A DNA stretch of 64,000 nucleotides from Saccharothrix syringae (lineage in GTDB: Bacteria > Actinomycetota > Actinomycetes > Mycobacteriales > Pseudonocardiaceae): assembly GCF_009498035.1 (NCBI RefSeq), contig NZ_CP034550.1, forward strand, positions 5,952,001 to 6,016,000, given 5' to 3'. A program made the position numbers and the translations under genes. Below are positions 23,006-58,878 of this stretch, piece after piece (within the stretch, counting starts at the first letter, position 1; every line of letters starts with the position of its first letter). The notes under the pieces were generated by a model. The model was not told where the DNA came from, ran no database searches, and saw only the letters and a list, made by a program, of their open reading frames with translations.

Positions 23006-26000
23006 TCACGCCGGCGGGTAGTACCCGGTCTCGGCGAAGAACCGGATGTAGGTGTCCACCAGCTCCTCACCGATCGGCGGGCACGCGATCCCGGTCCCGG
23101 CCAGCGCCTCCTCCGTCGTCGACACGTCCACCAGCGGGTAGAACGCGGCGCTGTCGGAGGTCATCAGGTCGAACGCGTCCAGCAGCGGGATCAGGGCGTT
23201 GTCCCGGTCGGCCAGCACCGAGGCCCGCCACTCCTCGAAGTCCCGCTCCGGCAGCGCGTACCCGTGGGCGCGCAACCGCGCCACGATGGTCTGCCAGCTC
23301 ACCCGCCCGGGGTTGTAGAGGTGGTGGGTCTCCCCCGAGTTCGCCGACAGCGCCACCACCGCGGCCGCGACGTAGTCGACCGGGACCATCGGCACCGTGC
23401 CGCTCAGCCCGCGCGGCACCGAACCGGCCTGGACCAAACCCTTGGTGCTCAGCCACACGAAGTCACGGGTCTGGCAGGCGCCGTTGCGCTGGTCGCCGGA
23501 GACCAGGTCGACCCGGTAGACCGAGACCGGCAACCCGCGCGAACGGGCCAGCCCCACGACCCCCTCGGCGACCCACTTGCTGCGCAGGTAACCGCTGGGC
23601 AGCTCGGGCGCCGGGCCGGTCGGGTCGTCCACCCTCAACGGCACGCCGGGTTCGCGCATCCCCGCGAACACCCCCGTGGTGGACAGGTGGTGGACCGGCA
23701 CGGTGCGGTGCCGCGCGGCCAGCCGCAGCACCTCCTGGGTGCCGTGCACGTTGGCCGCCTTCAAATCCTGGTACGGGCGCAGCCAGTTGACCACCGCGCC
23801 GCCGTGGTAGACGACGTCCACGGTGCGGGCCAGGTGGTCGAAGACCTCCTCGGTGAGCCCCAGCCGGGGCTTGGACAGGTCGCCGGGCACCACGCGCAGC
23901 CGCGAGAAATCGACCTCGTCCCGGAGCCGGTACCAGCGGAGGTTGGCCTCCAGCTTGCGGCGCCCCTCCTCCTCGTCCGCGGCGCGCACCAGGCAGTGCA
24001 CGGTCGCGTCCGAAGCCTTCAGCAGCTCCCGCAGCAGGAACGCGCCGAGGAAGCCGGTGCCGCCGGTCAGCAGCACGTGCTCGGGCGCGGACACCGTGCG
24101 CACGACCTCGTCGGCCGGCCGGATGTCGTCGGGCAGCACCACCTCGGCCTCGTAGTCCACCTCGGTCGCCCCGGCCGCGCCGGCCAGGAACGCGGCCAGC
24201 GCGCCCGGCGTCGGGTGGTCGAACACCACGGTGGCGGGCAGGGTCAGGCCGGTGGCGGCGGCCACCCGGTTGCGCAGCTCCACCGACAGCAGCGAGTCGA
24301 AGCCCAGGTCGGGGAACGGCCGGTCCTCCACCGGCGCGGTCAGCCCGAGCACGGCGGCGACCTCGGCGTGCACCAGGTCGGTGACCACGCGCCGCCGCTC
24401 GTCCTCGGTCAGCTCGGCCAGGTCGGGTGCCGGCGCGCCGTTGCGGGCCGCGGGCCGCACCACCGGCAGCAGGGTGCGCAGCAGCGGCGGCGCCTGGTCG
24501 GGCCGGGCGCGCAGGGCGTCGCGGTCCACCGGGGCGGCCACCACGGCCGTGGTGCCCAGGGCCGCGTCGAGCATGGCCAGGCCGTGCCCGGTGGCCACGG
24601 GCCGCAGGCCGGCCTTGGCGATGCGGCTCCGGTCGGCGTCGGTGAGGTTGGCGGTGATGCCGCTGGTCTGCTCCCACAGGCCCCAGGCGATGGAGGTGGC
24701 GGGCAGGCCGATGGACCGGCGGTGCGCGGCCAGGCCGTCGAGGTAGGCGTTCGCGGCGGCGTAGTTGCCCTGGCCCGCACCGCCGATCACGCCCGCGATC
24801 GAGGAGAACAGCACGAACGCGGTCAGGTCGTGGCCCCGGGTCAGCTCGTGCAGGTGGCGGGCGGCGTCGGCCTTGGGCGCCAGCACGCCGGCCAGCCGCT
24901 CCGGGGTCAGGTCGCCGACCAGGCCGTCGTCGATGACGCCCGCGGTGTGCACCACGCCGGTCAGCGGGTGCCGCGCCAGCAGCGCGGCCACCTGGTCCCG
25001 GTCGGCCACGTCGCACGCCTCCACGACCACCCGCGCGCCGTGCGCGGACAGCTCGGCCACCAGCTCGGCCGCGCCCGGCGAGTCGGGCCCCCGGCGGCTG
25101 GTCAGCACCAGGCTCCGCACGCCGTGCGCGGTGACCAGGTGCCGGGCCACCAGCGCGCCCAGCGCACCCGTGCCGCCGGTGACCAGCACGGTGCCCGAGC
25201 GGTCCCACCGCTGCCGGGTCAGCGAGGCGGGCCGCAGCACCGGCACGTGCGCGACCCCGCCGCGCACCACGACCTGCGCCGCGCCCGACGCCACCACGGC
25301 CGCCACCAGCTCGTCGGTCGCCTCGTCCGCGTCCACCAGCGTGATCCGGCCCGGCTGCTCGGACTGCGCGGACCTGGCCAGGCCCCACAGGGCGGCGCCG
25401 TCCACGTCGGTCACGTCGGGGCCGACCGCGCCGGAGGTGACCGCGACCAGCGGTTCGCCGCGCTGGAGGTCGGCCAGCGCGGCGGCGAGCCGGGTGTGCA
25501 GGTCCGCGCCGGGCGACCAGCGCACCACCCGGGGTGGCGTCCCAGCCCCCGCGGGCAGCTCCACCGGCTCCCACACCACCTCCAGCAGCGCGTCGGCGGG
25601 CCGCAGCAGCCCGTCGGCCACCTCGTCGGGTGCCACGGGCGCCAGCTCGACGGACCCGACCGTGGCCACCGGGGCGCCGCTCGGGTCGGCCAGCAGCAGC
25701 CCGTCCCCGGTCACCCGGGCGCGCAAAGAGGCCGCGCCGACCGCGTGCAGCTCCACGTCGCGCCACCGCACGGCCGCACCGTCGCCCAGCAGGCGCACGG
25801 CCCGGTCGAGCAGGGTCGGGTGCAGCCCGAACCCGCCGGGTTCCACGCCCTCGACCTCGGTCCACGGCCCGTCGGCGAACGCGGGCGCCGGACCGGCCGG
25901 GGCGAGCCGCCCGGTGGCGTGCGCGCGCCAGGCGCCGTCCAGTCGCGAGTGGACGGTCACCCGGTCGCCGCTCACCCGCACCTGCAGCTGCACGCCGCGG

Positions 26001-28930
26001 TCGGGCACCACCACCGGCGCGGTCACCTCCAGCTCCGCCAGCCGGGGCAGCCCCACCTCGTCGCCGGCCCGGATCGCCAGCTCCACCAGCGCCGCCGGCG
26101 GCAGCACGACCGCGCCGTGCACCCGGTGGTGCGCCAGCCACGGCTGGGTGCGCGGGGAGAGCCGGGCGGTGAACAGCACCTCGCCGCTGTCGGCCACCGG
26201 GACGGCCGCGCCGAGCAGCGGGTGGTGGGCGTCGGCCAGGCCCAGCTCGCCCGCGTCCACCGCCTCGGTGTGCTCGACCCAGAACCGCTGCCGCTGGAAC
26301 GGGTAGGTGGGCAGGGGCACCTTGCGGGCGTTGCTGCCGGCGAAGAACGCGCGCCAGTCCACCGCGACGCCGTGGCCGTGCAGGGCGGCGAGGCCCGCGA
26401 CCAGGCCGCCGCCGGCCCGCTGGAGGGCGACCGCGGCCACCCCGTCGACGGTGTCGCGCACCATCGGGGTCAGCACCGCGTCCGGGCCGACCTCGACGAA
26501 CGTGGTCACGCCCTCCTTGGCCAGGGCACGCGCGCAGTCGGCGAACCGCACGGCCTCGCGCACGTGCCGCACCCAGTAGTCCGGCGAGCGCAGCAGCTCA
26601 CCGCCCGCCGGGGCACCGGTCACGTTGGACACCACCGGGATGACCGGTTCGGCGTAGGTCACCCTCGCGGCGACCTCGCGGAACGGCGCCAGCGCCGGCT
26701 CCATGCGCGGGGAGTGGAACGCGTGGCTGACGGTGAGCCGCTTGGTCCGGCACCCGCGCGCCCGCAGCTCCTCCTCCACCGCGCGCACGCCGTCCTCGTC
26801 GCCGGACACCACGACCGCGGCGGGCCCGTTGACCGCGGCGATGCCCACGCCGGGCACCAGCAGCGGCTCGACCTCGGCGGGCGGCGCGGCCACCGCCACC
26901 ATCGCACCGCCGGCGGGCAGCTCGTCGATCAGCCGGGCGCGGGCGGCGACCAGGGCGCACGCGTCCTCCAGCGAGAACACCCCGGCCACGTGCGCGGCGG
27001 TCAGCTCGCCCAGCGAGTGCCCGGCCACGCAGTCCGGCCGCACGCCCCAGGACTCCAGCAGCCGGAACAGCGCCACCTCGAAGGCGAACAGCGCGGGCTG
27101 GGTGTAGCGGGTGCGGTGCAGCTCGTCGGAGCCGCCGAACACGACCTCCTTGAGCGGCCGGGGCAGGTGCGGGTCCATCAGCGCGCACACCGCGTCGAAC
27201 GCCTCGGCGAAGACCGGGTACCGCTCGTGCAGGTCGCGGCCCATGCCCGCGCGCTGCGCGCCCTGGCCGGTGAACAGGAACGCGGTGCGGCCCGGCGGCG
27301 GCACGGGCGCACCGCCCGCGAACGCCTCCAGCGCGGTCAGCAGCCCCTCGCGGTCGGCCGCCACCACCGCGCCCCGGTGCTCCAGCGCGGCCCGCGTGGT
27401 GGCCAGCGAGAACGCCACGTCCGCGGGCTCCAGCGCGGGGTCGGCCGCCACGTGGTCGCGCAGCCGCGCGGCCTGGGCGCGCAGCGCCTCGGGGCTGCGC
27501 GCGGACAGCAGGAACGGCCACTCCCCCGCCGACCGCGGCACCTCGACCGCCTCGGGCTCGGGCACGTGCTCCAGCACGACGTGCGCGTTGGTGCCGCTGA
27601 CGCCGAACGACGACACCGCCGCCCGCCGCGCCCGGTCGGCCGCGGGCCAGGGGCGGGCCTCGGTCAGCAGCTCGACCGCGCCCGCCGACCAGTCGACCAC
27701 CGGGGTGGGCTCGGTGACGTGCAGGGTCCGCGGCGCGACGCCGTGCCGCATGGCCTCCACCATCTTGATCACCCCGCCGACGCCGGCGGCGGCGACGCTG
27801 TGCCCGATGTTGGACTTCAGCGACCCCAGCAGCAGCGGTTCGGACCGGCCCTGCCCGTAGGTGGCCAGCAGCGCCTGCGCCTCGATCGGGTCGCCCAGCC
27901 GGGTGCCGGTGCCGTGCGCCTCCACCACGTCCACGTCCGCCGGGGTGAGCCGGGCGTCGGCCAGCGCGGCCCGGATGACCCGCTCCTGCGCGGGCCCGTT
28001 GGGCGCGGTCAGGCCGTTGGACGCGCCGTCCTGGTTGATGGCGGTGCCGCGCACGACCGCCAGCACCGGGTGGCCGTTGCGGCGGGCGTCGGACAGCCGC
28101 TCCAGCAGCAGCAGGCCCACGCCCTCCGACCAGCCGGTGCCGTCGGCGGTGCCGGAGAAGGACTTGCACCGGCCGTCGGGCGCCAGGCCGCGCTGGCGGG
28201 AGAAGTCCACGTAGCCGGTCGGCGAGCCGTAGACCGTGCTGCCGCCGGCCAGCGCCAGGCTCGACTCGCCCTCGCGCAGCGACCGCACCGCCAGGTGCAG
28301 CGCCACCAGCGACGACGAGCAGGCCGTGTCGACGGTGACCGCCGGGCCCTCCAGCCCGAAGGTGTAGGACACCCGGCCGGAGGCGACGCTGGAGAGCTTG
28401 CCGGTCATCAGGAAGCCCTCCAGCTCCTCCGGCCCGGCCAGGCCCAGGTAGCTCTGCTCGCCCACGCCGGCGAACACGCCGGTCCGGGTGCCGCGCAGGC
28501 CGGCGGGGTCGATGCCGGCGCGCTCGAACAGCTCCCACGCGGTCTCCAGCAGCACCCGCTGCTGCGGGTCCATGCCCAGCGCCTCGCGCGGCGAGATGCC
28601 GAAGAACGCCGCGTCGAACTCGGTGGCGTGCTCGATGAACCCGCCCTCGCGGGTGTAGGTGCGGCCGGGCGTGCCGGGTTCGGGGTCGTAGAGGCGTTCC
28701 ACGTCCCAGCCTCGGTCGGTCGGCCACTCGGTGATGCCGTCGCCGCCGGACTCGACCAGCCGCCACAGGTCCTCCGGCGAGGACACGCCGCCGGGGTAGC
28801 GGCAGGCCATGGCCACGATGGCCACGGGCTCGGGTTCGGCTGCCTCCAGCTCGGCGATGCGCTCCCTGGCCTGCTGCAGGTCGGCGGTCACCCACTTCAG
28901 GTACTCGACCAGCCGTTCCTCGTTGGACAC
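23006..28930 (-). CDS. Modular type I PKS, module 5 with terminal thioester reductase (KS-AT-DH-KR-ACP-TR)
   Basis: 1974 aa from GTG 28930. An N-terminal coiled-coil docking segment ([20 protein letters not shown]) leads to: KS (Cys near residue 203), AT (GHSLGE near 637; HAFH near 737, malonyl type), DH (HRVHG with Pro five residues on, near 935; LHPTLLD retained) and KR (VTGGTGALG near 1253; IDDG as in B-type KRs; Tyr in GQGNYAAAN near 1388). ACP (LGFDSLL near 1544) and a short-chain-reductase-type thioester reductase (TGGTGFLG near 1625; YLRSK near 1780) follow. The TR, in place of a thioesterase, predicts reductive release of the C12 chain as an aldehyde. It is the last gene of the PKS operon, 35 nt after the previous PKS stop, and a strong hairpin follows. 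The TR-aminotransferase pairing in one locus is the coelimycin-type logic. Confidence 0.95.
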
Positions 28931-28965
28931 CGGGGTTTCCTCTCCTGCTCGGTGGGGTCGACCGG

Positions 28966-31900
28966 TCAGCGCGCGACGCGGCCGAGCTGGTTGTCGATGA
29001 AGTCGAACAGCTCGCTGGTGGTGGCGGAGGCGAAGTCGGGGCGCGCCCGGTCGCCGGCCGGGGAGTCGGCCGCGGAGTTCCAGCGCGACAGGATCGTGCG
29101 CAGCCGCACGGTGATCTCGTCGCGGTGGTCGTCGTCGTGGCCGATGCCGGCCAGCACCGCCTCCAGCCGGTCCAGCTCGGCCAGCGCGGGCGGCACGGGC
29201 CGCTCGGCGGGCGCGACGCGCGCCAGCAGCACCTCGGTGAGCGCGGCGGGCGTGGGGTGGTCGAACACCAGCGTGGCCTCCAGCCGCACGCCGGTGGCCG
29301 CGGCCAGCCGGTTGCGCAGGTCGACCGAGGTCAGCGAGTCGAAGCCCAGGTCGCCGAACGGCCGCTCCAGGTCCACCCGGCGCGGGTCGCCGTGGCCCAG
29401 CACCGCGGCCACCTGCTCGCGCACCACCTCGGCGGCCACCCGGTGCCGGTCGCCCTCGGCCACGCCCGCCAGCCGCTCGGCCAGCGTCGCCGCCGGCGCC
29501 GGGCGCACCAGGTCGCGCAGCAGCGGGCTCGCGGGCAGCGCCGACACCGGCGCCGCGACCACGGCGGGCAGCCCCGCCCGGACCGCCGCCCCCAGCGCGT
29601 CGTCGTCGGCCTCGGCGGGCAGCACCACGAACGCGCCCGGCTGCCCGGCCTCGCGGCGCAGCCGGGCCAGGGCCTCCAGGAACGCCGCGCCGGCCGCGTA
29701 GTGGGCCTGACCGGTCACCCCCAGCCCGTCCACGGTGGACGCGAACGCCAGGGTCCGCTCCGGTTCGGCCTCGTGCAGCTTCCACGCCGCGTCCACGACC
29801 TCGCGCAGCACCTCGTCCAGCGCCTCGTCGGTGAGCGCGCCGAGCACGGCGGCCGCGGGCGGTTCGACCCGGTGCACCACCAGGTCGGCCGGCTCGACCC
29901 GACGGGGCTCCGCGCGCACCAGCCGGGGCGCGAACGCCCCGCCGTCGCGCAGCAGCACCTGCGGCTCGCCCGAGGCCACCACCGGGGCCAGCCGGGCCGG
30001 CTCGCCGCCGACCAGCACGATCCGGTCGGGCGCCTCGGCCTGGGCGGCGCGCACCAGGCCCCAGACCGCGGCGATGCCGGGGTCGGCCGGGTCGGGCGTG
30101 AGCACCACCAGCCGCCCGGTGCCCGCGGCGCGGCGGCGCAGCTCGGCCAGCACCCGCCGGGTGGCGGTGTGCGCGGTGGTCACCGGGTCCGGCCCGGCCT
30201 CGACCCGCAGCACCTCCGGCTCGGGCCCGTCGGCGGCGGGCAGCTCCACCGGTTGCCACCGCACCTCGTAGAGCGCGGTGCCCAGGGCGCGGAAGGACAC
30301 CTCGTCCACCCGGGCCACCTCGGCGCCCGCCTCGTCGCGGAACGCCTCGCCGTCGAAGCGCACGGCCGTGCCCGGCGCGGTGGCGCGCAGCCCGCGCCAG
30401 AGCACCGGGTCGAGGTCGTCGCGGGCGACCAGGTCCAGGTCGACCCGCGCGTCCACCGCCGGTCCCGCGGCCAGGGTGCCGCGGGCGTGCTCGACCCAGC
30501 CGTCGCGCCAGGAGTGCACGGTGACCGGGCGCCGCCCGTCCTCGGGCGCGCCGACCTTGACCTGCACGCGCACCTCGGCGTCCTCGGGCAGCGAGTCGAC
30601 GTCGAGGTCCAGCACCGGGTGGCCGACCTCGCGGCCGGCGTGCCAGGCCAGCCCGGCCAGGCCGGCCGCGGTGAGCCGCCGGTCGGTGCGGCCGGTGAAC
30701 AGCACCTCCCCGGTGCCCGCCACGGGCACCGCCGGGTCGAGCACCGGGTGCCCGGCGCCGGCGCGGGCGCGGGTGGTCAGCCAGTACCGCTCGCGCTGGA
30801 ACGGGTAGGTGGGCAGCACCGCCCGCCGGCCGGGGAAGGCCGACCAGTCCACGGCCACGCCCCTGGCGTGCAGGGTCGCGAACAGCTCCACCGCGGTGGC
30901 CGCCTCGGGGCGGTCGCGGCGCAGCGCGGGCAGCGCGGCCGAGCCCTCCGGCAGCACCGCGCCGAGCAGGCCGGACAGCACCGCGTCCGGGCCGACCTCG
31001 ACGAAGGTGGTCACGCCCGCCTCGACCAGCCGCCGGGCGGCGTCGGCGAAGCGGACGGTCTCGCGCACGTGCCGCACCCAGTACTCCGGGTCGGTCCAGT
31101 CGCCGTCGGCGGAGACCGAGGACACCACGGGCGTGGTGGGCTCGTGGAACTCCAGCCCGCGCACGACCTCGCGGAACTCCTCCAGCATGGGCTCCATCAG
31201 CGGCGAGTGGAACGCGTGGCTGACGGCCAGCCGCTTGGCCCGCAGGCCCTCGGCGGCGCGCAGCACGGCGTCCTCGACACCGGAGAGCACGATCGACCGG
31301 GGCCCGTTGACCGCCGCGACGGCCACGCCCCCGGGCAGGACCACCTCGTCCTCGGCGGCCTGGACGGCGACCATCGCGCCACCGCGGGGCAGCGCCTGCA
31401 TCAGCCGGCCGCGCGCCTCCACGAGCTTCGCGGCGTCGGCCAGGGACAGCACGCCGGCGGCGTGCGCGGCGGCGATCTCGCCGATGGAGTGGCCCGCCAG
31501 GAAGTCCGGGCGCACGCCCCAGGACTCCAGCAGCCGGACCAGCGCGACCTCCACCGCGAACAGCGCGGGCTGGGCCGTGCCGGTCTCGTCCAGGCCCTCG
31601 CCGGAGGCGACGGCCTCGCGCACGTGCGCCGGGAGCAGCGCGCACACCTCGTCGAGGGCCTCGGCGAACACCGGGAAGCGTTCGGCCAGCTCCAGGCCCA
31701 TCCGCACCCGCTGCGAGCCCTGGCCGGTGAACACGAACGCCACCCGGCCGTCGGTGGCCTTCGGCAGCACCCGCGCCGCGCGCAGGTCGGCCGGGTCGGT
31801 GGCGGCCACCACGGCGCGGTGCTCCAGCAGGGCGCGGCCGGTGCCCAGGGTGTGGGCCAGGTCCGCGAGCGGCACGTCCGCGCCGGCCAGCCGCTCCACC

Positions 31901-34900
31901 TGCTCGGCCAGGGCGGCGGGCGTGCGCGCCGAGACCACCACCGGCACCGGGCCCTGCACCGCGGCGGGCTCCGCCGCGGCCTCGGGGGCCTGCTCCAGCA
32001 CGACGTGGGCGTTGGTGCCGCTGATGCCGAACGAGGACACCGCCGCCCGGCGCGGCCGGTCGGCCGGCCACTCGCGCGCCTCGGTCAGCAGCTCGATGGC
32101 GCCCGACCACTCCACGTGCGGGCTGGGCCGGTCCACGTGCAGGGTGCGGGGCATCACCCCGTGCCGCATGGCCTGCACCACCTTGATGATCCCGCCGACG
32201 CCGGCCGCGGCCTGGGTGTGGCCGATGTTGGACTTCAGCGAGCCCAGCGCCAGGGGCCGGGGGCGCTCGACGCCGTAGACCGCGTGCAGCGCCTCGGCCT
32301 CGATCGGGTCGCCCAGGGTGGTGCCGGTGCCGTGCGCCTCCACCACGTCCACGTCCGCGGGCCCCAGGCCGGCGGCGTCGAGCGCGGCGCGGATGACCCG
32401 CTGCTGCGCCGGGCCGCTGGGCGCGGTCAGGCCGTTGGACGCCCCGTCCTGGTTGACCGCGGTGCCGCGCACCACGGCCAGCACCGGGTGCCCGTGGCGC
32501 ACCGCGTCCGACAGCCGCTCCACCAGCAGCAGGCCCACGCCCTCGGCCCAGCCGGTGCCGTCGGCGGCCGCGGCGAACGGCTTGCAGCGGCCGTCCGGGG
32601 ACAGCCCGCGCTGGCGGGAGAACTCCACGAACGGCGTGGGCGTGGACATGATCGTCGCGCCGCCGGCCAGCGCCAGGTCGCACTCGCCGTTGCGCAGCGC
32701 CTGCGCGGCCAGGTGCAGGGCCACCAGCGACGACGAGCAGGCGGTGTCGACGGTGATCGCGGGGCCCTCCAGGCCCAGCGCGTAGGCCAGCCGCCCGGAC
32801 GCGACGCTGCCGGCCGTGCCGCCCGCCAGGTAGCCCTCCAGCTCCGGCGGCAGGGCGCCGCCGCTGCCGTAGTCGTGGTACATCAGGCCGGCGAACACGC
32901 CGGTGCGGCTGCCGCGCAGCCCGGACGGGTCGATGCCCGCGCGCTCGATGGCCTCCCACGCGGTCTCCAGCAGCAGCCGCTGCTGGGGGTCGGTGGCCAG
33001 CGCCTCGCGCGGCGACATGCCGAAGAACTCCGGGTCGAACAGGTCCGCGTCGTGCAGGAACCCGCCCTCGCGGGTGTAGCTCGTGCCGGCCCGCTCCGGG
33101 TCCGGGTCGTAGAGGGCGTCGAGGTCCCAGCCGCGGTTGGTCGGGAACCCGCTGACCGCGTCGCGGCCCTCGACGACCAGTTGCCACAGGTCCTCGGGGG
33201 TGCGCACGCCGCCCGGGTAGCGGCAGGCCATGCCCACGATCGCGATGGGCTCGTCCACCGGGGTCACGGCCTTGCGCTCGACCTTCTCGGGCGCGACCGA
33301 GCCCGCCAGGAACCGGGCGAGCGCGGCGGGCGTCGGGTGGTCGAACACCAGCGTGGTGGGCAGCTTCTGCCCGGTCGCGGCGGCCAGCCGGTTGCGCAGC
33401 TCCACCGCGGTCAGCGAGTCGAAGCCCAGCGCGGTGAACGCGCGGTCGGCCTCGACCCCGGCGGGGTCGGCGTGGCCGAGCACGGCCGCGACCTGGGTGC
33501 GCACCAGCTCGGTGAGCGCGCGCAGCCGGTCGCCCTCGGACAGCGCGGCGAACCGGTCGCCGGCCTGCCGGGCCCTGGCCTTGCGCGGGGCCAGCTCGCG
33601 CAGCGCCGGGTGCGGGTCCTCGCGCAGCGCGGCCCGGTCCAGGCCGGTGACGGCGAGCACCGGCTCGTCGCCGGCCAGGGCCGCGTCGAACGCCGCCAGC
33701 GCCTCCTGCGTGCCCAGCGGCTTGAGCCCCAGCCTGCCGATGCGCTTGCGGTCCACTTCGGACAGGCCGTCGGACATGGCGCTGCCGGTCTCCCACAGGC
33801 CCCACGCCAGCGAGGTCGCCTTGAGGCCCAGCGCGCGGCGGTGCTCGGCCAGCGCGTCGAGGAAGGTGTTGCCCGCCGCGTAGTTGGCCTGGCCCGCGGT
33901 GCCCAGCACGCCCGCGATCGAGGAGTAGAGCACGAACGCGTCCACGTCGCCGACCAACTCGTGCAGGTTCCACGCGGCGTCGACCTTGGGCCGCAGCACC
34001 GCGTCGACCTGCTCGGGCGTCAGCGACCCCAGGGTGCCGTCCCGGAGCACGCCCGCGGTGTGCACGACCGCGGTGACGGGGTGCTCGGCCAGCAGCGCGG
34101 CCAGGGCGTCGCGGTCGGCCACGTCGCAGGCGGCGGTGACCACCTCCACGTCGCCGGGGACCTCCGGGGCCCGCCCGCTGCGGCTGACCAGCACGAGCTT
34201 GCGCGCGCCGTGCCGGTCGACCAGGTGCCGCGCCAGGGCCGAGCCCAGGGCGCCGCCGGCGCCGGTGACCAGCACGGTGTCCCAGTTCGGGGCCTGGCCC
34301 TGCGGGCGCGGCGCGGGCACCAGGCGCTGCTCGACGACCTGTCCGCCGCGCACCACGGCGAACCGGTCGGGGTGCTCGGCCGCGGCGCTGCGCACCAGGC
34401 CGTGCACGGCGGCGTGGGCCAGGTCGTCGCCGACCTCGATGCCCAGCCGGCCGCCGTCGCGGGCCAGCCAGTCCCGCAGGACGCCCAGCACGTGGTGCAC
34501 GGCGCGGTGGGTGCGCTCGGGCACGGTGCCCTCGCCCGCCTCCACCGCCACCACGGCGTCCACGGCGGCGTCGGCGGTGCGCCAGGCGGGGGTGAACAGC
34601 AGCCGGTCGCCGGTTCCCGACGCGCTCGCGGGCCGCAGCACCAGTTCGTCCACCGACACCACGGGCGTGCCGGCGCTGTCGGCCAGCAGCAGCGCCACCG
34701 ACTCCGGGCCGGTGGGGGTGATCCGGACGCGCAGCGCGGTGCCGGCGGTGCCGTGGAAGCGGACGCCGTGCCAGGAGAAGGGCAGCGCGGCGGGCCGGTC
34801 GTGGTCGACCACGCCGGGCAGCAGCGGGTGCAGCGCGGCGTCGAACAGCGCCGGGTGCACCGCGAAACCGGTCACCTCCGGCTCCTCCGAGAGCGCGACC

Positions 34901-37900
34901 TCGGCGAACAGCTCCTCGCCGCGGCGCCACACCCGACGCAGGCCGCGGAACCGGGGCCCGTAGCCGTAGCCGTGGCGCTCCACGCCGTCGTAGGAGAAGT
35001 CGACCTCCTCGGCACCCTCCGGCGGCCACGCCAGCAGGTCCTCGGTGGGTCCGGGGTCGGCGGCGGGCGCGCCGGTGGCGTGCCGGGTCCACTCCTCGTC
35101 GTCGCGCCGCGAGTAGATCTCCACCGCGTCCTCGGCGCGCACCACCCGCACGGTGACCGCGCCGTCCTCGGGCACCACCAGCGGCGCGGTGATGGTCAGC
35201 TCGGCCAGGGCGCGGCCCGCCACCTCGGCCAGCGCCGTGCCGGGCACCACGACCGCGCCGTTCACGCGGTGGTCGGCCAGCCACGGGTGCGCGGACAGCG
35301 AGAGGGTGCCGGTGAGCACGGTCGAGCCGTCGGGCAGGTCCACCGCGGCGCCCAGCAGCGGGTGCCCGGCCGCGCGCAGGCCGGCCGCCGAGACGTCGCC
35401 GCCGGGTGCCGGGCGCAGCCAGTAGCGCTTGCGCTGGAAGGCGTAGGTGGGCACGGGCACCTTGCGGGCGCCGGGGAACACCGCGGCCCAGTCCGGGTCA
35501 ACGCCGCAAGTGTGCAGCGCGGCCAGCGCGGCGGCCGCGGCCACCGGCTCCGGGCGGTCGGCGCGCAGCAGCGGCACCGGGGTGACGTCGTCGAACGCCG
35601 CCGCGGTGAGCCCGGACAGCACGGCGTCGGGGCCGAGTTCGACCACGGTGCGCACGCCCCGCTCGACCAGGGCGGTCATCGCGTCGTGGAAGCGCACGGT
35701 CGCGCGGACCTGCTCGACCCAGTACTCCGGGTCGGTCCAGTCGGCGTCGGGCGACACCGTGGACGCCACCGGGACCTGCGGCGCGTGGAACGCCAGCGTG
35801 CGCGCGACGGCCCGGAACTCGTCGAGCATGGGCTCCATCAGCGGCGAGTGGAACGCGTGGCTCACGGCCAGCCGCTTGCCCCGCAGGCCCTCGGCCGCCC
35901 GGAGCACGGCCTCCTCGACACCGGAGAGCACGATCGACCGCGGCCCGTTGACCGCCGCGACCGCCACGCCCTCGGGCAGGTCCAGCTCGTCCTCGGCGGC
36001 GCGCACGGCCACCATCGCGCCGCCCTCGGGCAGTGCCTGCATCAGCCGGCCGCGCGCCTGCACCAGCTTCGCGGCGTCGGCCAGGGACAGCACGCCGGCG
36101 ACGTGCGCGGCGGCCAGTTCGCCGATGGAGTGGCCGACCAGGAAGTCCGGGCGCACGCCCCAGGACTCCAGCAGCCGGAACAGCGCCACCTCCACCGCGA
36201 ACAGCGCCGGCTGCGCCAGGCCCGTGCCGTCCAGGCCCTCGCCGGAGGAGATCGCCTCGCGCACCGGGACGTCGAAGTGCGCCAGCACCTCGTCGAGGGC
36301 CTTCGCGAACACCGGCTGCGCGCGGGCCAGCTCCAGGCCCATGCCGACGCGCTGCGAGCCCTGGCCGGTGAAGGCGAACGCGACCTTGCCCGGCCTGGCG
36401 GGCACGGCGGGCGGGAGGTCGGCCGGGTCGACCGACCCGGAGCGGTAGGGCATGGGCGTGCGGGTGGCCAGGGTGTAGGCCACGTCCGGGGTGAGTTCGA
36501 CGCCCTCCAGCGAGCGGGCCAGCTCGGCCACGGCCTCCGGGGACTTCCCCGACAGCACGACCGGCACCGGGCCGGTCGCGGTGCCGGCGGGGACCTCCTC
36601 GGGCTCGGCCTCCTCCACCACGACGTGGGCGTTGGTGCCGCCGAAGCCGAACGAGGACACCGCGGCCCGCCGCGGCCGGTCGGCGCGCGGCCACTCGCGG
36701 GCCTCGGTCAGCAGCTCCACCGCGCCGGAGGTCCAGTCGACGTGGCGGGAGGGCCGCTCGGCGTGCAGGGTGCGCGGCGCGACGCCGTGCCGCATGGCCT
36801 GCACCACCTTGATGATGCCGCCGACGCCGGCCGCGGCCTGCGAGTGGCCGATGTTGGACTTCAGCGAGCCCAGCCACACCGGCCGGTCGCGGTCCTGGCC
36901 GTAGGTGGCCAGCACGGCGCGGGCCTCGATCGGGTCGCCCAGGGTGGTGCCGGTGCCGTGCGCCTCGACCAGGTCGACGTCGGAGGTGGACAGCCGCGCG
37001 GAGGCCAGGGCCTGGCGGATCACCCGCTCCTGGGCCGGGCCGTTGGGCGCGGTCAGGCCGTTGGAGGCGCCGTCGGAGTTGACCGCGGTGCCGCGCACCA
37101 GGGCCAGCACGGGGTGGCCGTTGCGGCGGGCGTCGGACAGCCGCTCCAGCAGCAGCACGCCCACGCCCTCGGCCCAGCCGGTGCCGTCGGCGTCGTCGGA
37201 GAAGGACTTGCAGCGGCCGTCGGCGGCCAGCCCGCGCAGCCGGGAGAACTCGACGAACGCCGTGGGCGTGGACATCACCGTCGCGCCGCCGGTCACGGCC
37301 AGCTCGCACTCGCCGCGGCGCAGCGCGTTCGCGGCCAGGTGCAGGGCGACCAGCGACGAGGAGCACGCGGTGTCCACGGTCAGCGTCGGGCCCTCGAACC
37401 CGAAGGCGTAGGCCAGCCGGCCGGACGCGATGCTGCCCGCGCTGCCGCTGAACAGGTAGCCCTCCACGCCCTCGGCGGGCAGGTTGGGTCGCGAGCCGTA
37501 GTCGTTGTACATCACGCCGACGAACACGCCGGTCCGGCTGCCGCGCAGCGTCTCGGGGTCGACGCCGGCGCGTTCCACGGCCTCCCAGGTGGTCTCCAGC
37601 AGCAGCCGCTGCTGGGGGTCGACGGCCAGCGCCTCGCGCGGCGACAGGCCGAAGAACTCGGCGTCGAACAGGTCGGCGTCGTGCAGGAACCCGCCGTGCC
37701 CGGTGGTGGACTTGCCCACCTTGTCCGGGTCGGGGTCGTGCAGGTCGGCGGGCCAGCCGCGGTTGGCGGGGAAGCCGGTGACCGCGTCGCGGCCCTCGGC
37801 CACCAGCCGCCACAGGTCCTCGGGGGTGCGCACGCCGCCGGGGTAGCGGCAGGCCATGCCCACGATCGCGATCGGTTCCTGCTCCTTGTCCTCGACCTCC

Positions 37901-37977
37901 TTGAGCCTGCGGCGTGCGTCCCGCGCGTCGGCGATGGCCCGCTTGAGGTAGTCGCGGAGCTTGTCTTCGTCAGCCAC
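28966..37977 (-). CDS. Modular type I PKS, modules 3 and 4 (KS-AT-DH-KR-ACP; KS-AT-eroded DH/KR-ACP)
   Basis: 3003 aa from GTG 37977, 14 nt after the upstream PKS stop. An N-terminal docking helix ([20 protein letters not shown]) precedes module 3: KS Cys near 37364, AT GHSIGE and HAFH, DH HRVNG near 35270 and [17 protein letters not shown] near 34265 and NYAAGN, ACP near 33415. Module 4 has an intact KS (Cys near 32735), an HAFH AT (31203-31225) and an ACP (near 29338). Its DH region (30695-30250) has neither HxxxGxxxxP nor HPxxxD, and its KR has lost about 70 residues including the glycine-rich NADPH loop, leaving only Tyr in HYAAG. So module 4 should not reduce and a beta-ketone stays. The module 3 DH lacks about 9 residues just after its active-site strand. 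The C-terminal docking domain ends in [11 protein letters not shown]. Confidence 0.95.
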
Positions 37978-37991
37978 GTCCGTCTCCAGGG

Positions 37992-50633
<12,642 letters not shown>

Positions 50634-50816
50634 CGACTGTCCTTCCCGAGCAGAGGACTTCTTCTCCGGGGACATTCCTACCGAGCAATTCCAACCGGCC
50701 AGTCACAAAGCGGTCGTCGGCTGTTCCAGGGGGCGGCGAATTACCGACGTGTGACCGGTGCCCGGTTAGCGTCGGCGGCGCCGTATCCCCTTCTCGCGAA
50801 AAGGACTGGTTCGACC
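50634..50816. promoter_or_regulatory. Divergent promoter region of the PKS operon and the isomerase-aminotransferase pair
   Basis: 183 nt between the PKS start (minus) and the NTF2-like start (plus). It contains AT-richer stretches around 50670-50720 and 50740-50790, and an imperfect inverted pair GTCACA (50702-50707) / TGTGAC (50751-50756). No copy of the 11-bp or 12-bp repeats from the regulator genes is evident. The location, not a motif match, supports the call. Confidence 0.5.
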
Positions 50817-51248
50817 GTGACCGCGATCCTGAAGAAGTTCGAGGCCCCGACCGACCCGCTGGAGATGACCGCCCTCTACGTGCGCGCCGTGAACGAGGGC
50901 GACGTCGACGCGGTGCTCTCGCTCTACACCGAGGACGCGGTCTCGGTGTGGGACCCGGAGAAGCCGATCAGCGGCGAGGAGCACGAGCAGACGATCCGGG
51001 AGTTCATGACCAAGAACCCGGTGATGACGGCCGAGGTCAAGGAGTCCTACGTGACCGGCGACACGGTCCTGCTGGTGGTGGACTGGAAGTTCGACATCGA
51101 GGGCGAGGAGTCGATCAGCGGCACCGGCCTGGACGTGCTGCGCAAGTGCCCCGACGGCCGCTGGCGCTACGCCATCGACAACCCGTTCGGCGACAACGAC
51201 CCCGTGCAGGAGGACGCCGCGGAAGGCGACTCCGCCGCCGAGGGCTGA
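50817..51248 (+). CDS. NTF2-fold, SnoaL/ketosteroid isomerase-like small protein
   Basis: 143 aa from GTG 50817 (AAGGA about 12 nt upstream). TALYVRAVNEGDVDAVLSLYTEDAVSVWDP is the opening helix-loop pattern of the NTF2/SnoaL superfamily, followed by IREFMTKNPVM, strands with GDTVLLVVDWKF and a C-terminal DGRWRYAIDNP. The acidic tail is non-conserved. The fold serves as isomerase, cyclase or hydrolase. The stop is separated by one nucleotide from the ATG of the aminotransferase, so the two are translationally coupled. A chemical fit exists: the predicted chain holds a beta,gamma-unsaturated ketone (C5 ketone, C2=C3), the classic substrate type of ketosteroid isomerase. A moved double bond would permit ring closure. 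The role is an inference; catalytic residues cannot be assigned by eye. Confidence 0.75.
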   Translation: MTAILKKFEAPTDPLEMTALYVRAVNEGDVDAVLSLYTEDAVSVWDPEKPISGEEHEQTIREFMTKNPVMTAEVKESYVTGDTVLLVVDWKFDIEGEESISGTGLDVLRKCPDGRWRYAIDNPFGDNDPVQEDAAEGDSAAEG

Positions 51249-51249
51249 G

Positions 51250-52704
51250 ATGGCGCTGGAGCTGGCCGAGGCCCACCTGCGCGGGCTGCTGTCGCAACTG
51301 GGCCTGGACGCGGAGTACGTGCGGGGCGAGGGCGACACCCTGTGGTGGCGCACCCCGTCCGGGGACGTGCCGGTGGTGGACTACGTGGGCGGCTACGGCT
51401 CCCTGGTGCTGGGCCACAACCACCCAGCCCTGGTCGAGCGGGCCAGGGAACTGCTGGACCAGCGGGTGCCGGTGCACGCCCAGTTCTCCTACCACCCGTA
51501 CGCCAACGACCTGGCCGCCGCGCTCAACCGGGTGCTGTGGCGCGAGTTCGGCGTCGAGGAGCCGTACTCGGCGATCTTCGCCAACACCGGTGCCGAGGGC
51601 ATCGAGGTGGCCCTCAAGCACGCCGAGATGGACCGGGTCGGCAGGGTGGCGCGGCTGCGGGCCGAGATCGAGGGGCACCTGGCCTCGGCCGACCCGGAGC
51701 TGGCCGCCAGGGCCAGGGAGCACAACGAGGGCCGGTTCGACCTGCCCCCCGTGTTCCTGACCCTGGAGGGTTCCTTCCACGGCAAGCTGGCGGGCAGCGT
51801 GCAGCTGACCCACAACGAGGGCTACCGCGTGCCGTTCCGCGGCCTGGCCGCGCAGGCGAGGTTCGTGGCGCCGACCGAGGTGGCCAAGGCCGTGGAGGCC
51901 GAGCGCGTCACCGTGCTCGACGTGGTCGACGGCGAGTTGGTCGAACGCGACCTGCCGGTCGTGGCGGCGTTCTTCGTCGAACCGGTCCAGGGCGAGGGCG
52001 GCATCCGGGTGCTGGAGGCGGAGGTGGCGGCCGAGATCCGCGCCGCCGCGGACGCGGCCGGGTTCCCGGTGGTCGTCGACGAGGTGCAGAGCGGCGTGGG
52101 GCGCACCGGCGCGTTCTACGCGGCCTCGCACATCGGCCTGCTCGGCGACTACATCGTGCTGGCCAAGGCCCTGGGCGGCGGCCTGGCGAAGTCCTCGGTG
52201 CTGCTGGTCAGGCAGAGCCGCTACCTGCCGGACTTCGAACTGCTGCACAGCTCGACGTTCGCCAAGGACGCGTTCTCCTGCCACCTCGGCCTGCGCGTGG
52301 TCGACCTGCTGGAGGCCGAGGACGGCGCGGCCTACCGGCGGGCGGCGGAGCGGGGCGAGGCGCTGGCCGCCGCGCTGCGGTCGGTCCGCGACGAGTTCCC
52401 CACCGTGGTCGCCGACGTCCGCGGCAAGGGCCTGATGCTGGGCCTGGAGTTCCACGACCAGACCGGCGGCACGACCGCGGTGGCCGAGTTCGCCCGCCAG
52501 GGCCTGCTCGGCTACGTGCTGGCGGGCTACCTGCTGCGGGAGCACCGCATCCGGGTGTTCCCCACCGCCAGCGCCACGCACACGCTGCGCTTCGAACCGT
52601 CGATCCACATCACCGACGAGCAGATCGCCCAACTGGTCACCGGCCTGCGCGCCGCGTGCACCGCCCTGCGGGACCACGACGACCCCGCGATCCTGCCGGC
52701 CTGA
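51250..52704 (+). CDS. Class III PLP-dependent aminotransferase for the polyketide aldehyde
   Basis: 484 aa. Class III (ornithine/GABA-type) aminotransferase motifs are complete: NTGAEGIEVALKHA for the phosphate site, SFHGK, EPVQGEGG, the PLP Asp in VVDEVQSGVGRTG, and LAKALGGG with the PLP lysine. An insertion near residues 130-165 (helix rich in Arg/Glu) and the length, longer than the usual 420-450, resemble the aminotransferases of coelimycin-type loci. Coupled to the NTF2-like gene upstream and divergent from the PKS that ends in a thioester reductase, it should convert the released aldehyde to a primary amine. That amine can cyclise onto the C5 ketone. A strong terminator follows. Confidence 0.9.
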   Translation: MALELAEAHLRGLLSQLGLDAEYVRGEGDTLWWRTPSGDVPVVDYVGGYGSLVLGHNHPALVERARELLDQRVPVHAQFSYHPYANDLAAALNRVLWREFGVEEPYSAIFANTGAEGIEVALKHAEMDRVGRVARLRAEIEGHLASADPELAARAREHNEGRFDLPPVFLTLEGSFHGKLAGSVQLTHNEGYRVPFRGLAAQARFVAPTEVAKAVEAERVTVLDVVDGELVERDLPVVAAFFVEPVQGEGGIRVLEAEVAAEIRAAADAAGFPVVVDEVQSGVGRTGAFYAASHIGLLGDYIVLAKALGGGLAKSSVLLVRQSRYLPDFELLHSSTFAKDAFSCHLGLRVVDLLEAEDGAAYRRAAERGEALAAALRSVRDEFPTVVADVRGKGLMLGLEFHDQTGGTTAVAEFARQGLLGYVLAGYLLREHRIRVFPTASATHTLRFEPSIHITDEQIAQLVTGLRAACTALRDHDDPAILPA

Positions 52705-52729: not shown

Positions 52730-52775
52730 CCGCGGCCCACCGACCTCCCACCCCGGGTCGGTGGGCCGCGGTTTT
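52730..52775. terminator. 16-bp hairpin with T4 after the aminotransferase
   Basis: Arms 52730-52745 and 52756-52771 are perfectly complementary, followed by TTTT on the plus strand. It lies between the plus-strand aminotransferase stop (52704) and the minus-strand methyltransferase stop (52788), and so separates the alkaloid and lanthipeptide loci. Confidence 0.9.
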
Positions 52776-52787
52776 CCGCTCATCGGG

Positions 52788-54002
52788 TCAGGTGGAGATC
52801 ACCAGGCGGACGAACCGCTTGTCGACCACCGGCCCATCTGCCAGTTCTGCGTCGGGGGTGCCTGCCGGGTAGGCGGTGATGACGGCCTGGGCGGTGCGGT
52901 CGTGGCTCCAAGTGCGGATCACAGCGCACAGGCGTTCGGCGAGATTCGCCCCAAGCGGGCCGTGGCCGGTGGCGCCGAGTTCGAAGCGGCGTTCGGTGGC
53001 CTCGGGTTCAGGTCCGCGCAAGGTGAGGTAGGCCAGGGAGTCGCCGTCGACCAGGGCGGGGCTGCTGAACTTGAACGCGGGGTTGCACAGGCCGGCCTCG
53101 ACGGCGGCGTTGCCCGCGGCGAAGCGGCAGGTACCGGGTTCGACGCCGGTGAGGCGGGGCCAGATGAGGTCGGTGGATTCCATCGGGGCCACCGACGCGC
53201 CCGACCACACCGTGGTGGCTTCCCGGGCGAGGACGCCGTGGAGCGTTTCCGGGTCGATGGGCTGGTCGGGGTCGTAGTGCAGGTCGACGTCGTCGGCGAT
53301 GCGGGCTGTGCGTTCGCCGTCCTGGCCGTCGCCGATCATGGGGATGAAGCCGCACAGCCGGCTGTCGGTGGCGCGCAGCACCCCGTCCTCCTGCTTGACG
53401 AACGCGACGCTGCGGGTCTGCCCCCTCCAGGTCAGCGGCACCACGAGCCGACCGCCGGGGGCGAGCTGGTCCAGCCACGCGGGCGGCAGGTCCCAGGGGC
53501 CGACGGTGACGATGATCCGGTCGTAAGGGGCGTGGTCGGGGTGTCCCAGGGTGCCGTCGCCGGTGACGACGTGCACGCGGTCGTAGCCGGTGGCGTCGAG
53601 GGCCTGACGAGCATGAGTGGTGACGTCGGGGTGGATGTCGATGGTGGTGACCTGGCCGGTGGGTCCGACGAGTTCGGCCAGCAGGGCGGCGTTGTAGCCG
53701 GTGCCGGCGCCGATCTCCAGGACGCGGTGGCCGGGTCGGGCGTCGAGCTGGTCGAGCATCATCGCCACGACCGTGGGCACGGAGATGCAGCTCGCGGGCC
53801 TGCCGCCGGGTTCGCCGGGCTTGATGGTGATGGACCTGTTGGCGTACGCGTCCTCGATGGTTGCGTCGGGCACGAACAGGTGGCGGGGCACGGTGCGCAG
53901 CGCGTGCTCGATGGTGGCCGAGTGCAGGTGTCCGGCATCGGCGATGTGGTCGACCATGCGGTCGCGCAGCTCGTCCGGCCCGGTGTCGGTGGTGGCGGTC
54001 AT
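52788..54002 (-). CDS. FxLD-system O-methyltransferase (protein-isoaspartate methyltransferase-like)
   Basis: 404 aa. Residues 1-215 form a PCMT-type SAM methyltransferase: SCISVPTVVAMML (71-83), motif I VLEIGAGTG (94-102), VTTIDIHPD and GDGTLGHPDHAPYDRIIVTVG. About 190 further residues (WSGASV, GNAAVEAGLCNPAFKF) form the extension seen in methyltransferases of FxLD lanthipeptide loci. The ATG overlaps the cyclase stop (ATGA, 53999-54002), so it is the last gene of the coupled operon. Related enzymes in lanthipeptide pathways methylate an Asp side chain to give an aspartimide or isoaspartate; the precursor core has a suitable Asp-Gly. Exact product not known. Confidence 0.88.
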   Translation of the reverse strand: MTATTDTGPDELRDRMVDHIADAGHLHSATIEHALRTVPRHLFVPDATIEDAYANRSITIKPGEPGGRPASCISVPTVVAMMLDQLDARPGHRVLEIGAGTGYNAALLAELVGPTGQVTTIDIHPDVTTHARQALDATGYDRVHVVTGDGTLGHPDHAPYDRIIVTVGPWDLPPAWLDQLAPGGRLVVPLTWRGQTRSVAFVKQEDGVLRATDSRLCGFIPMIGDGQDGERTARIADDVDLHYDPDQPIDPETLHGVLAREATTVWSGASVAPMESTDLIWPRLTGVEPGTCRFAAGNAAVEAGLCNPAFKFSSPALVDGDSLAYLTLRGPEPEATERRFELGATGHGPLGANLAERLCAVIRTWSHDRTAQAVITAYPAGTPDAELADGPVVDKRFVRLVIST

Positions 54003-58200: not shown

Positions 58201-58254
58201 CAGCAACGCGACCCCCGTGTGCCGGTACAGCGGCCTTCCACCAGCGGAAATCAT
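55213..58254 (-). CDS. Full-length LanB lanthipeptide dehydratase (class I)
   Basis: 1013 aa from ATG 58254 with GGAGG 5 nt upstream. Residues about 35 to 690 form the glutamylation domain (RPMPFGLFAGVAPV near 100, SWYQFDWGPHVNLPVLPRV near 600). About 720 to the end is the SpaB_C-type elimination domain (IHTHPERMNDI, GWWFLRYHSPRETHHLRLRL, DTYHPEVGRYGHG). The two-domain length equals classical tRNA-Glu-dependent LanB. It dehydrates Ser/Thr in the precursor encoded 43 nt upstream. The stop overlaps the cyclase start (ATGA), so expression is coupled. Confidence 0.94.
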   Translation of the reverse strand: MISAGGRPLYRHTGVALLRAAAAPLTDAPDRWPDLTDIPGCRLWLDRMWSRSGLVEAVRQAGPSLADRVEAIRLGHAVSDRQVRSMTLSVARYVLRGIGRPMPFGLFAGVAPVTVADRTSVRWGGQHRAAVRVNTEWLADITTRAEAVPELLERLEVTVNDLAVRRGDRLEVPHGPNRVAIRHTSVVAAVREAASTPIRFGALVDRLAEDFTADRRRALDTLTELVRRGHLLTGLRAPFTVTDPFAYLIARLRDADARSLPGMTTLLDGLDVVLAELRHHNDDATPPAEQHRLRTTLLDRMRCLSSAGRTPLAADLLLDSDVRVPDGVAQEMERAASALLRTTRHPTGDPAWREYHAAFVDRYGTGTLVPLLDLVSPDAGLGYPARYDGSLLPTPVPAFARRDERLAAMAWRAMADGTREIVLTDDDIAALTSEDFDERYIPPHVELSARVHAAGAAAVDRGEFTLTVAPARSAGTLTSRFTPTATGSGLAEVYRALPAATEGALRAQLSFGPKYAPAENVCRVPAYLDHVIPLGEHRGPGDPATLITVEDLAVAATRDRLHLVSRSRRRVVEPQVFHALALDKQPPPLARFLAELPRAFSASWYQFDWGPHVNLPVLPRVRYGRTVLSPAQWRLTTADLSTGDDWRQLPDRWRRLWDCPDVVELRDADRTLRLTLDEPAHATLLHAHLVRHGQAVLHEATPVADCGWLDHHAHEIALPLVTTRAPAPNPLRGALPEVGNTHGHLPGAPDSRRLTAKIHTHPERMNDIVARHLPELLDDLDEDQGWWFLRYHSPRETHHLRLRLHVDPDHYAACTNALGKWTQRMRQAGVTGRLVLDTYHPEVGRYGHGAALAAAEDVFAADSRLVAALLRNLPATAAHPTALVAAGMVGIVEGFLGGPGEAADWLTARRTRTTAAIDRAVADEAIRLATDRDALRQLPGWMESVEQAWRSRADTLAAYRVQLPADADTDTVLESLLHMHHNRAVGIDSDSEHACRRLARQAALARRARGGSR

Positions 58255-58297
58255 CGGATCCTCCAGGCTCGTACCGAGCGAGTCCAGGCAGCCCGGC

Positions 58298-58456: not shown

Positions 58457-58494
58457 GAGCAGCGGTTCCCTTCGTATTGCTGAGCAGATCACCA

Positions 58495-58864: not shown

Positions 58865-58878
58865 CGAAGAAAGCGGGG

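Follow-up and report, generated by a model that had tools for sequence, protein, structure and literature searches.

A probable argimycin/streptazone-type polyketide-alkaloid gene cluster in a Saccharothrix-group actinomycete, with a proposed pathway

Introduction

The argimycin, streptazone and abikoviromycin alkaloids have been described in Streptomyces (PMC5300972; PMC5820336). The closest described system is the argimycin P cluster (arp, Streptomyces argillaceus; BGC0001433). Homologues of the arp proteins were compared through NRRL S-1022 (L021), an argimycin producer (PMC5300972), and arp itself through its published descriptions (PMC5300972; PMC5820336). The arp polyketide synthase (PKS) and the aminotransferase ArpN suffice for nigrifactin (PMC5300972). 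The streptazone E cluster (stz) is closely related to arp, its cyclases StzE and StzF being similar to ArpHII and ArpHI, and its likeness to the locus considered here is judged by the description of stz in PMC5300972 alone. In the coelimycin cluster (cpk), KR4 and DH5 of the PKS are working, which is how it differs from the argimycin PKS (PMC9733639).

The window, the whole 64,000-nucleotide stretch that was analysed, would carry most of an argimycin/streptazone-type polyketide-alkaloid cluster of a Saccharothrix-group actinomycete, with a probability of roughly 0.78, and its product, as predicted from the genes, is probably a cyclopenta-fused piperidine. As arp is described, the two clusters share the PKS gene split, KSQ, six malonyl ATs, the thioester reductase (TR), predicted non-working KR4, DH4 and DH5, a class III aminotransferase, an imine reductase, ArpDHI-, ArpO- and ArpK-like proteins, a SnoaL pair and a SARP. 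In contrast to arp, the locus gave no ArpT match, has an extra carboxyltransferase gene and encodes proteins 45–62% identical to those of NRRL S-1022; its gene order is rearranged and split by 25.9 kb. This rearrangement and interruption count against an argimycin-type reading.

Polyketide synthase and predicted chain

The three PKS genes (Table 1) are collinear, with intergenic gaps of 14 and 35 nt. By Pfam, PKS1 holds three KS/AT/ACP sets, PKS2 two and PKS3 one, and NAD_binding_4, the TR domain, lies at the PKS3 C-terminus. Motifs are given under their common names (KSQ, HAFH, LDD, HxxxGxxxxP, YGPxF, Tat). The loading KS has AQSSS at its active site, all five extension KSs have DTACSSS, EAHGTGT and KSN, GHSxG and HAFH occur in each of the six ATs, and GFDSL in six of six modules; the motifs of modules 1–3, KR5 and TR are intact. 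AQSSS, HAFH, LDD and two DH motifs also appear in PMC5300972. The initial annotation had read KSQ loading and five malonyl (HAFH) extension modules over three genes, a 1+2/2/1+TR gene split, a terminal TR with a class III aminotransferase, and a C12 malonyl chain, and the domains and motifs agree throughout (NAD_binding_4; Aminotran_3; HAFH in 6/6 ATs, with none of another type). The resemblance that it saw to CpkA/B/C and nigrifactin stands as well and extends to argimycin.

Table 1. Features of the locus in window coordinates
Feature	Position	Strand	Remarks
ArpO-like flavin amine oxidase (AmOx)	9700..11133	minus	Amino_oxidase (Pfam); Tat-like N-terminus SRRRVLKG
ArpDHI-like acyl-CoA-dehydrogenase-fold flavoenzyme (ACAD)	11231..12403	minus	Acyl-CoA_dh_2
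SARP-type regulator 1 (BTAD, AAA)	12738..15977	minus	64% copies in the G014 and G003 clusters
Imine reductase (IRED)	16188..17075	plus	RedAm-like_C, NAD_binding_2; ArpDHII-like in family and context
SARP-type regulator 2 (SARP2), ArpRI-like	17361..19679	plus	BTAD
PKS3	23006..28930	minus	docking-KS-AT-DH5(degenerate)-KR-ACP-TR
PKS2	28966..37977	minus	docking; module 3 (KS-AT-DH-KR-ACP); module 4 (KS-AT, DH remnant, truncated KR, ACP)
PKS1	37992..50675	minus	KSQ-AT-ACP loading; modules 1 and 2 (KS-AT-DH-KR-ACP); alternative start 50633
SnoaL-type cyclase, ArpHII homologue (HII)	50817..51248	plus	SnoaL_2; gene call; missed in the initial annotation
Class III PLP aminotransferase (ArpN/CpkG-like)	51250..52704	plus	Aminotran_3; PLP-lysine motif AKALGGG
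Left part of 25.9-kb insertion	52770..64000		not read as alkaloid pathway
ArpHI homologue (HI)	80914-81324		outside the window; completes the SnoaL cyclase pair with HII

In module 4 the DH core is gone, and so is the half of the KR that binds NADPH. DH5 is missing part of the second hot-dog fold and has DxxxR where DxxxH would stand. These losses, which the initial annotation had overlooked, are shared by all five Saccharothrix/Actinosynnema genomes compared, in which the KR4 Rossmann motif and the DH4 motif are gone and, by motifs and alignment, DH5 has lost its YGPxF segment and carries DxxxR in place of DxxxH. Judged by the motifs missing from 5/5 genomes, KR4 and DH5 are expected to be non-working, leaving a 5-ketone and a 3-hydroxyl. 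Because the module 4 DH and KR and DH5 are degenerate, the chain predicted by argimycin logic is 3-hydroxy-5-oxododeca-6,8,10-trienal. An earlier proposal, 5-oxododeca-2,6,8,10-tetraenal, is thus upheld in its 5-oxo group, as KR4 has no Rossmann motif, and not in its 2,3-double bond, as DH5 is degenerate in all five genomes. Gene calls for the argimycin-type PKS of Streptomyces sp. Tue 6430 (L124/L125) were broken frames, and this PKS was compared at module 4 only; relative to KR4 of that strain, KR4 and DH5 of the window are more eroded.

The line had at first been called coelimycin-type. In that case KR4 and DH5 would work, or act in trans, and a 5-hydroxy or 2-ene chain would later be oxidised and cyclised to a product resembling coelimycin. 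In agreement with cpk, the genes are split alike, KSQ, malonyl ATs and a C12 malonyl chain are found, and release by TR is followed by transamination by a class III aminotransferase; HxxxGxxxxP is still present in DH5 of the window. However, KR4 and DH5 are where the cpk and arp PKSs differ, working in cpk by the description in PMC9733639, which also gives cpk other tailoring enzymes, whereas here the Rossmann motif of KR4 is missing and DH5 degenerate in 5/5 genomes, and an argimycin-like SnoaL pair and an imine reductase are present. The coelimycin-type assignment is rejected because of the degenerate KR4 and DH5, and we regard it as highly improbable.

Aminotransferase, HII and conservation in relatives

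The best solved relative of the aminotransferase is CrmG. The enzyme is 55% identical to its counterpart in NRRL S-1022, and in a tree of 46 rows the Saccharothrix-group rows come together in a clade separate from the argimycin rows. ArpN and CpkG are 67% identical (PMC5300972); set beside this value, the 55% identity counts against the argimycin reading, and so does the separate clade. HII ends 1 nt before the aminotransferase start and matches an ArpHII-like protein of NRRL S-1022 at 48% over 112 aa (tblastn); homologues of 67–78% identity occupy the same position beside the aminotransferase in five relatives. Mapped on the aminotransferase tree, SnoaL presence requires eight changes, a count for which absence was scored in 10-kb flanks alone and is wrong for at least L032, whose genome (G042) carries both SnoaL genes at the opposite extreme of its cluster; no conclusion is drawn from it.

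The aminotransferase recurs at 77–85% identity in 10 of 23 same-genus genomes (E limit 1e-80), and the three-PKS split lies beside it in all four relatives fetched at length. This conservation indicates that the PKS-aminotransferase unit is not a chance arrangement. Two of the four (G003 and G014) have the whole set contiguous with the PKS, at 52–87% identity, and the other two (G001 and G017) have the conserved PKS unit with another tailoring set and no IRED. A plasmid search gave four matches.

Tailoring and regulatory genes

A gap of 3.3 kb separates PKS3 from AmOx, ACAD, IRED and the two SARP genes, which are on the opposite side of the PKS from the corresponding block in G003 and G014. 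AmOx is 45% identical to the copy adjoining the aminotransferase in NRRL S-1022, and copies near ArpHI reach 52% in G014 and 60% in G003. ACAD is 60% identical to the NRRL S-1022 copy, has copies of 78–82% in five same-genus genomes and resembles solved flavin hydroxylases, its likeness to HsaA being below the HsaA cut-off. ArpDHI-, ArpO- and ArpK-like flavoproteins were thus all found, by homology. SARP2 shares 62% identity with its NRRL S-1022 counterpart across 249 aa (54% in G014, 58% in G003). The IRED start has a ribosome site, and the top solved match is an imine reductase; copies are 78–80% identical in five same-genus genomes, and the NRRL S-1022 homologue 46%. In the IRED tree, the window enzyme and the ArpDHII enzymes form separate clades among other IREDs, so the window IRED may have been recruited independently.

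Across genome positions 5947658-6072418, which span the cluster, no Thioesterase (PF00975) match was obtained at E 0.001. The missing ArpT is not counted as defining, because such thioesterases are editing enzymes (PMC5300972). Among the Pfam-scanned genes, which took in part of the small ones, no TetR family was found; neither NRRL S-1022 nor the stz strain has arpRII (PMC5300972). The separate clades of IRED and ArpDHII, the lack of a Thioesterase match and the relatives without IRED (G001 and G017) all count against an argimycin-type reading.

The flanking tailoring genes had been said not to be the coelimycin set, which holds by the description in PMC9733639; they are argimycin-like nonetheless, a link between the PKS and the genes at 9.7–19.7 kb that the initial annotation had missed, and on this account the idea that unusual tailoring genes imply a new product was rejected. 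The pathway could instead end with a simple cyclic imine or piperidine, the genes at 9.7–19.7 kb and the distant HI and K not acting. Such a C12 cyclic imine, as first proposed for this locus, is already known to be made by the arp PKS together with ArpN (nigrifactin/argimycin PIII; PMC5300972), and the tailoring genes stand apart from the PKS unit, with 3.3 kb between them and PKS3 at one end and 26 kb between them and the aminotransferase at the other. In G003 and G014, however, they are contiguous with the PKS, and HII adjoins the aminotransferase both here and in the five relatives, which makes an early stop quite unlikely. For an argimycin-type pathway, the further tailoring genes present lead us to expect the nigrifactin-like imine as a shunt, not the end product.

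Insertion and genes beyond the window

The alkaloid gene set is nearly full and is spread over about 72 kb, with a modified-peptide cluster inserted mid-way. ArpHI and ArpK homologues, 61% and 58% identical to those of NRRL S-1022, lie outside the window at about 80–81 kb, and the carboxyltransferase-ArpK-ArpHI genes are parted from the aminotransferase by the 25.9-kb insertion. The spacer between aminotransferase and carboxyltransferase in S. coeruleofusca aligns in two pieces, one matching the window as far as position 52769 and the other matching the window's own genome from window coordinate 78656. The cluster reaches past both limits of the interval 23006-52704, which had been taken to hold the complete line. 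A methyltransferase, LanC and LanB on the right-hand side were considered as pathway genes and rejected; they belong to a lanthipeptide locus within the insertion that is of the FxLD type by its precursor motif.

The insertion, together with the tailoring block's position on the other PKS side relative to G003 and G014, could also mean a decaying, silent cluster, in which co-regulation has been broken and little or no alkaloid is made. Against this, the genes listed are open frames with positive coding scores, and the intact motifs of modules 1–3, KR5 and TR argue likewise; we consider decay unlikely.

Proposed pathway

For the argimycin-type pathway, enzyme roles and their order are inferred from published argimycin mutants (PMC5820336; PMC5300972) and laid over the domains, motifs, gene set and conservation observed here. 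The PKS would join six malonyl units, with the triene arising from modules 1–3, the ketone at module 4 and the hydroxyl at module 5. The TR domain would free the predicted trienal, to be aminated by the aminotransferase, and the 1-amine would attack the C5 ketone to give a 4-hydroxy-2-heptatrienyl cyclic imine; in this respect the earlier logic of reductive release, transamination and a six-membered cyclic imine is retained. The imine reductase would convert the cyclic imine to the piperidine, after which the ArpDHI-like flavoenzyme may perform an epoxidation, and the two SnoaL cyclases, HII inside the window and HI beyond it, may close the cyclopentane ring. Finally, the ArpO-like oxidase, supplied by the ArpK-like flavin reductase, would re-oxidise the amine to an imine or pyridine.

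Tat-like signal peptides occur in 25 of 28 ArpO-type homologues of the fetched loci, including AmOx of the window and the NRRL S-1022 protein, which suggests that the final oxidation step may be extracellular. It is conceivable, and put forward tentatively, that throughout the argimycin family a harmless secondary amine is exported and converted beyond the membrane to a reactive imine (abikoviromycin-like) or pyridine, as self-protection. Argimycins PI and PII were recovered when mutants in arpO and in the PKS were grown together (PMC5820336), which fits extracellular oxidation but also precursor uptake.

Implications

The insertion would represent one cluster that landed inside another, leaving the adjoining open frames unbroken. 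Since it splits the pathway genes, a prediction that covered only the surroundings of the PKS would overlook several of them. Clusters with and without the imine reductase, a second aminotransferase or a P450 form a natural series for comparison, and gene-to-ring assignments are predicted for the argimycin-type pathway. The argimycin/streptazone/abikoviromycin family would thereby be extended to a conserved Saccharothrix/Actinosynnema branch.

A Probable Argimycin-Type Polyketide Synthase

All four core genes recognized in the initial annotation, three for the PKS and one for the aminotransferase, are present as described there (PKS coordinates and domains in the table). The PKS genes are separated by 14 nt (PKS1/PKS2) and 35 nt (PKS2/PKS3), and the aminotransferase carries the PLP-lysine motif, with CrmG as its best solved relative. 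Since all six AT domains contain HAFH, no non-malonyl AT, which had been named as evidence against the annotation, was found.

Features of the argimycin-type genes and of the insertion (positions above 64000 lie past the right edge of the window)
Feature	Position (nt)	Strand	Remarks
Left block	9.7-19.7 kb		ArpO-like amine oxidase (AmOx), ArpDHI-like flavoenzyme (ACAD), imine reductase (IRED), two SARP regulators
PKS3	28930-23006		One module + thioester reductase domain
PKS2	37977-28966		Two modules
PKS1	50675-37992		KSQ (AQSSS)-AT-ACP + two DH-KR modules
ArpHII-like SnoaL cyclase (HII)	50817-51248		143 codons; ends 1 nt before aminotransferase
Lanthipeptide precursor candidate	58298-58456	(-)	52 aa, FALD motif
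Carboxyltransferase (CT)	78722-80329		L096 14722-16329; outside window, right
ArpK-like flavin reductase (K)	80326-80850		58%; outside window, right
ArpHI-like SnoaL cyclase (HI)	80914-81324		61%; outside window, right

The reductive domains predict a different chain. Modules 1-3 have whole KR motifs and whole DH motifs (HxxxGxxxxP, HPxxxDxxxH and YGPxFR, the last reading YDGVFR in module 1). After its AT, module 4 (the second of PKS2) lacks both the DH HxxxGxxxxP and the Rossmann motif, and its KR tail reads YAAGA versus the expected YAAxN. The DH of module 5 (PKS3) keeps the histidine motif but has lost the YGPxF segment and reads DxxxR for DxxxH; the PS-DH Pfam model does not match it. By motif scan, these losses recur in 5/5 genomes, namely that of the window and the same-group relatives G001, G017, G014 and G003, the G014 count coming solely from the scan as its module 4 row in the alignment is empty. 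Given these motif losses, the predicted aldehyde is 3-hydroxy-5-oxododeca-6,8,10-trienal, replacing the 5-oxododeca-2,6,8,10-tetraenal proposed initially.

In the relevant passages of PMC9733639, the coelimycin and argimycin PKSs differ solely at modules 4 and 5: the coelimycin line has KR4 and DH5, both of which are inactive in the argimycin line. Because precisely these domains are degenerate here, the PKS is, judged by its motifs, an argimycin-type line as distinguished in those passages, and the earlier coelimycin-type assignment is not supported. The argimycin-like module 4 of Streptomyces strain Tue 6430 differs in that its KR is nearly whole, with LDN in place of LDD, in agreement with the Asn that PMC5300972 describes. 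By this comparison, KR4 of the Saccharothrix group has been lost through another, deeper deletion. In PKS1 of the four relatives, modules 1 and 2 together yield a single true DH HxxxGxxxxP in a strict scan (both are intact in the window), so one of these DHs may also be eroding there.

A Single Rearranged Cluster

Several tailoring genes lie beyond the span annotated initially; within that span HII went unnoticed, and the left block was not linked to the PKS. Over 112 aa, HII shares 48% identity with the ArpHII-like protein encoded by Streptomyces sp. NRRL S-1022, whose production of nigrifactin and argimycins PIV-PVI is demonstrated in PMC5300972. A predicted SnoaL-aminotransferase fusion protein also exists (P0042, from a database match list). 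An HxlR gene (19826-20311) stands beside SARP2. CT, a carboxyl transferase subunit gene, is conserved in S. coeruleofusca, G001, G017 and G003 (84-93%), where it follows the aminotransferase gene and precedes the ArpK-like one; none was called in G014. It may supply malonyl-CoA.

In S. coeruleofusca, the aminotransferase and CT are 160 bp apart. Because this spacer aligns as two pieces, one up to window position 52769 (84.6%) and the other from 78656 (89.6%), the alignment indicates an insertion of ~25.9 kb in the lineage of the window genome; exact matches near the two borders reach at most 12 bp. The G003 order is PKS3-PKS2-PKS1-HII-aminotransferase-CT-K-HI-GMC oxidoreductase-AmOx-ACAD-P450-second aminotransferase-IRED-SARP1-second IRED-MFS-SARP2, GMC and P450 being identified by Pfam in G003 only, and G014 resembles it minus CT and the second IRED. 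Cluster genes of the window genome are 52-87% identical to the G003 and G014 copies. G001 and G017 keep HII-aminotransferase-CT-K-HI and have a different tailoring set past PKS3, with no IRED called within the 80-kb stretches. In the window, the AmOx-SARP2 block is on the PKS3 side, not the HI side. In G001, a 72% homologue of the small gene adjoining this block (21902-22321) stands on the HI side, consistent with a move of the whole stretch. The argimycin-type genes of this genome are, on gene order, one cluster that has been rearranged.

The G003 and G014 clusters (L095 and L090) each have a second class III aminotransferase, 48% identical to the first, and a P450, and G003 a second imine reductase. 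The insertion holds an FxLD lanthipeptide locus (52788-58456) with an FxLD methyltransferase (TIGR04364), LanC, full-length LanB and the precursor candidate with its FALD motif. Adjoining these genes is one for an odd fusion protein (58879-60402), which begins with a helix-turn-helix and ends with a peptide deformylase domain, and a second HxlR regulator adjoins a SnoaL-family protein within the insertion (L096 7532-8560). To the left, window 1-5349 and L098 11606-19999 encode one KS-AT-DH-KR-ACP-C-A-PCP-TE hybrid, two Amino_oxidase/CrtI-like oxidoreductases and a fatty-acid-hydroxylase-family protein, which we take to resemble a polycyclic tetramate macrolactam (PTM) locus.

Proposed Pathway

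In the passages of PMC5820336 on argimycin biosynthesis, ArpN carries out amination followed by spontaneous ring closure, ArpDHII reduces the imine (shown by nigrifactin feeding), epoxide formation by ArpDHI is proposed only, the five-membered ring is assigned to ArpHI and ArpHII jointly, and ArpO oxidizes the piperidine with support from ArpK. If these roles carry over to the homologues in the window genome, the product should be a 12-carbon cyclopenta-fused piperidine, imine or pyridine, plus nigrifactin-like shunts. The IRED is the weakest link in this transfer, because in a 35-row tree the cluster IREDs of the Saccharothrix group and those of the argimycin clusters form separate clades among other IREDs, each of 4 rows and 100/100.

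A motif match predicts a Tat-like export signal on ArpO-type amine oxidases. An RRx[hydrophobic]K/R-type motif occurs within ~75 residues before the FAD domain in 25 of 28 homologues, rows that are not independent, with four near-identical Streptomyces loci giving eight rows, some genomes having two oxidases, and L111, L119 and L121 entering via other IRED genes. These are hits in fetched loci with at least 400 aligned residues, after removal of shorter hits and identical N-termini; the motif is absent from L014, from L126 (SRRSVLTTAG) and from L119, whose gene is a truncated copy of that in L128. As a control, the first 60 residues of 20 of 569 called ORFs in loci L001-L044 contain it, the oxidases themselves included. 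The terms twin-arginine and signal peptide are absent from the main text of PMC5300972 and PMC5820336.

Distribution

The host genome (10.93 Mb, single contig) is very PKS-rich, with 81 ketosynthase-family matches, many within large PKS frames. Aminotransferase similarity (S. coeruleofusca, 90%; S. obliqua, 85%; A. pretiosum, 81%) places the window in the Saccharothrix/Actinosynnema group, and homologues at 77-85% occur in 10 of 23 same-genus genomes. In a 46-row tree, the aminotransferase falls within an eight-row Saccharothrix-group clade (100/100), apart from the argimycin rows. Of 7999 candidates scored against it, at least 468 proteins match with E<=1e-100, and this class of alkaloid cluster is known and common. 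As far as the accounts in PMC5300972, PMC5820336 and PMC9733639 go, the new details are this Saccharothrix-group branch, the erosion of its module 4, the splitting of the cluster and the lanthipeptide locus nested within it.
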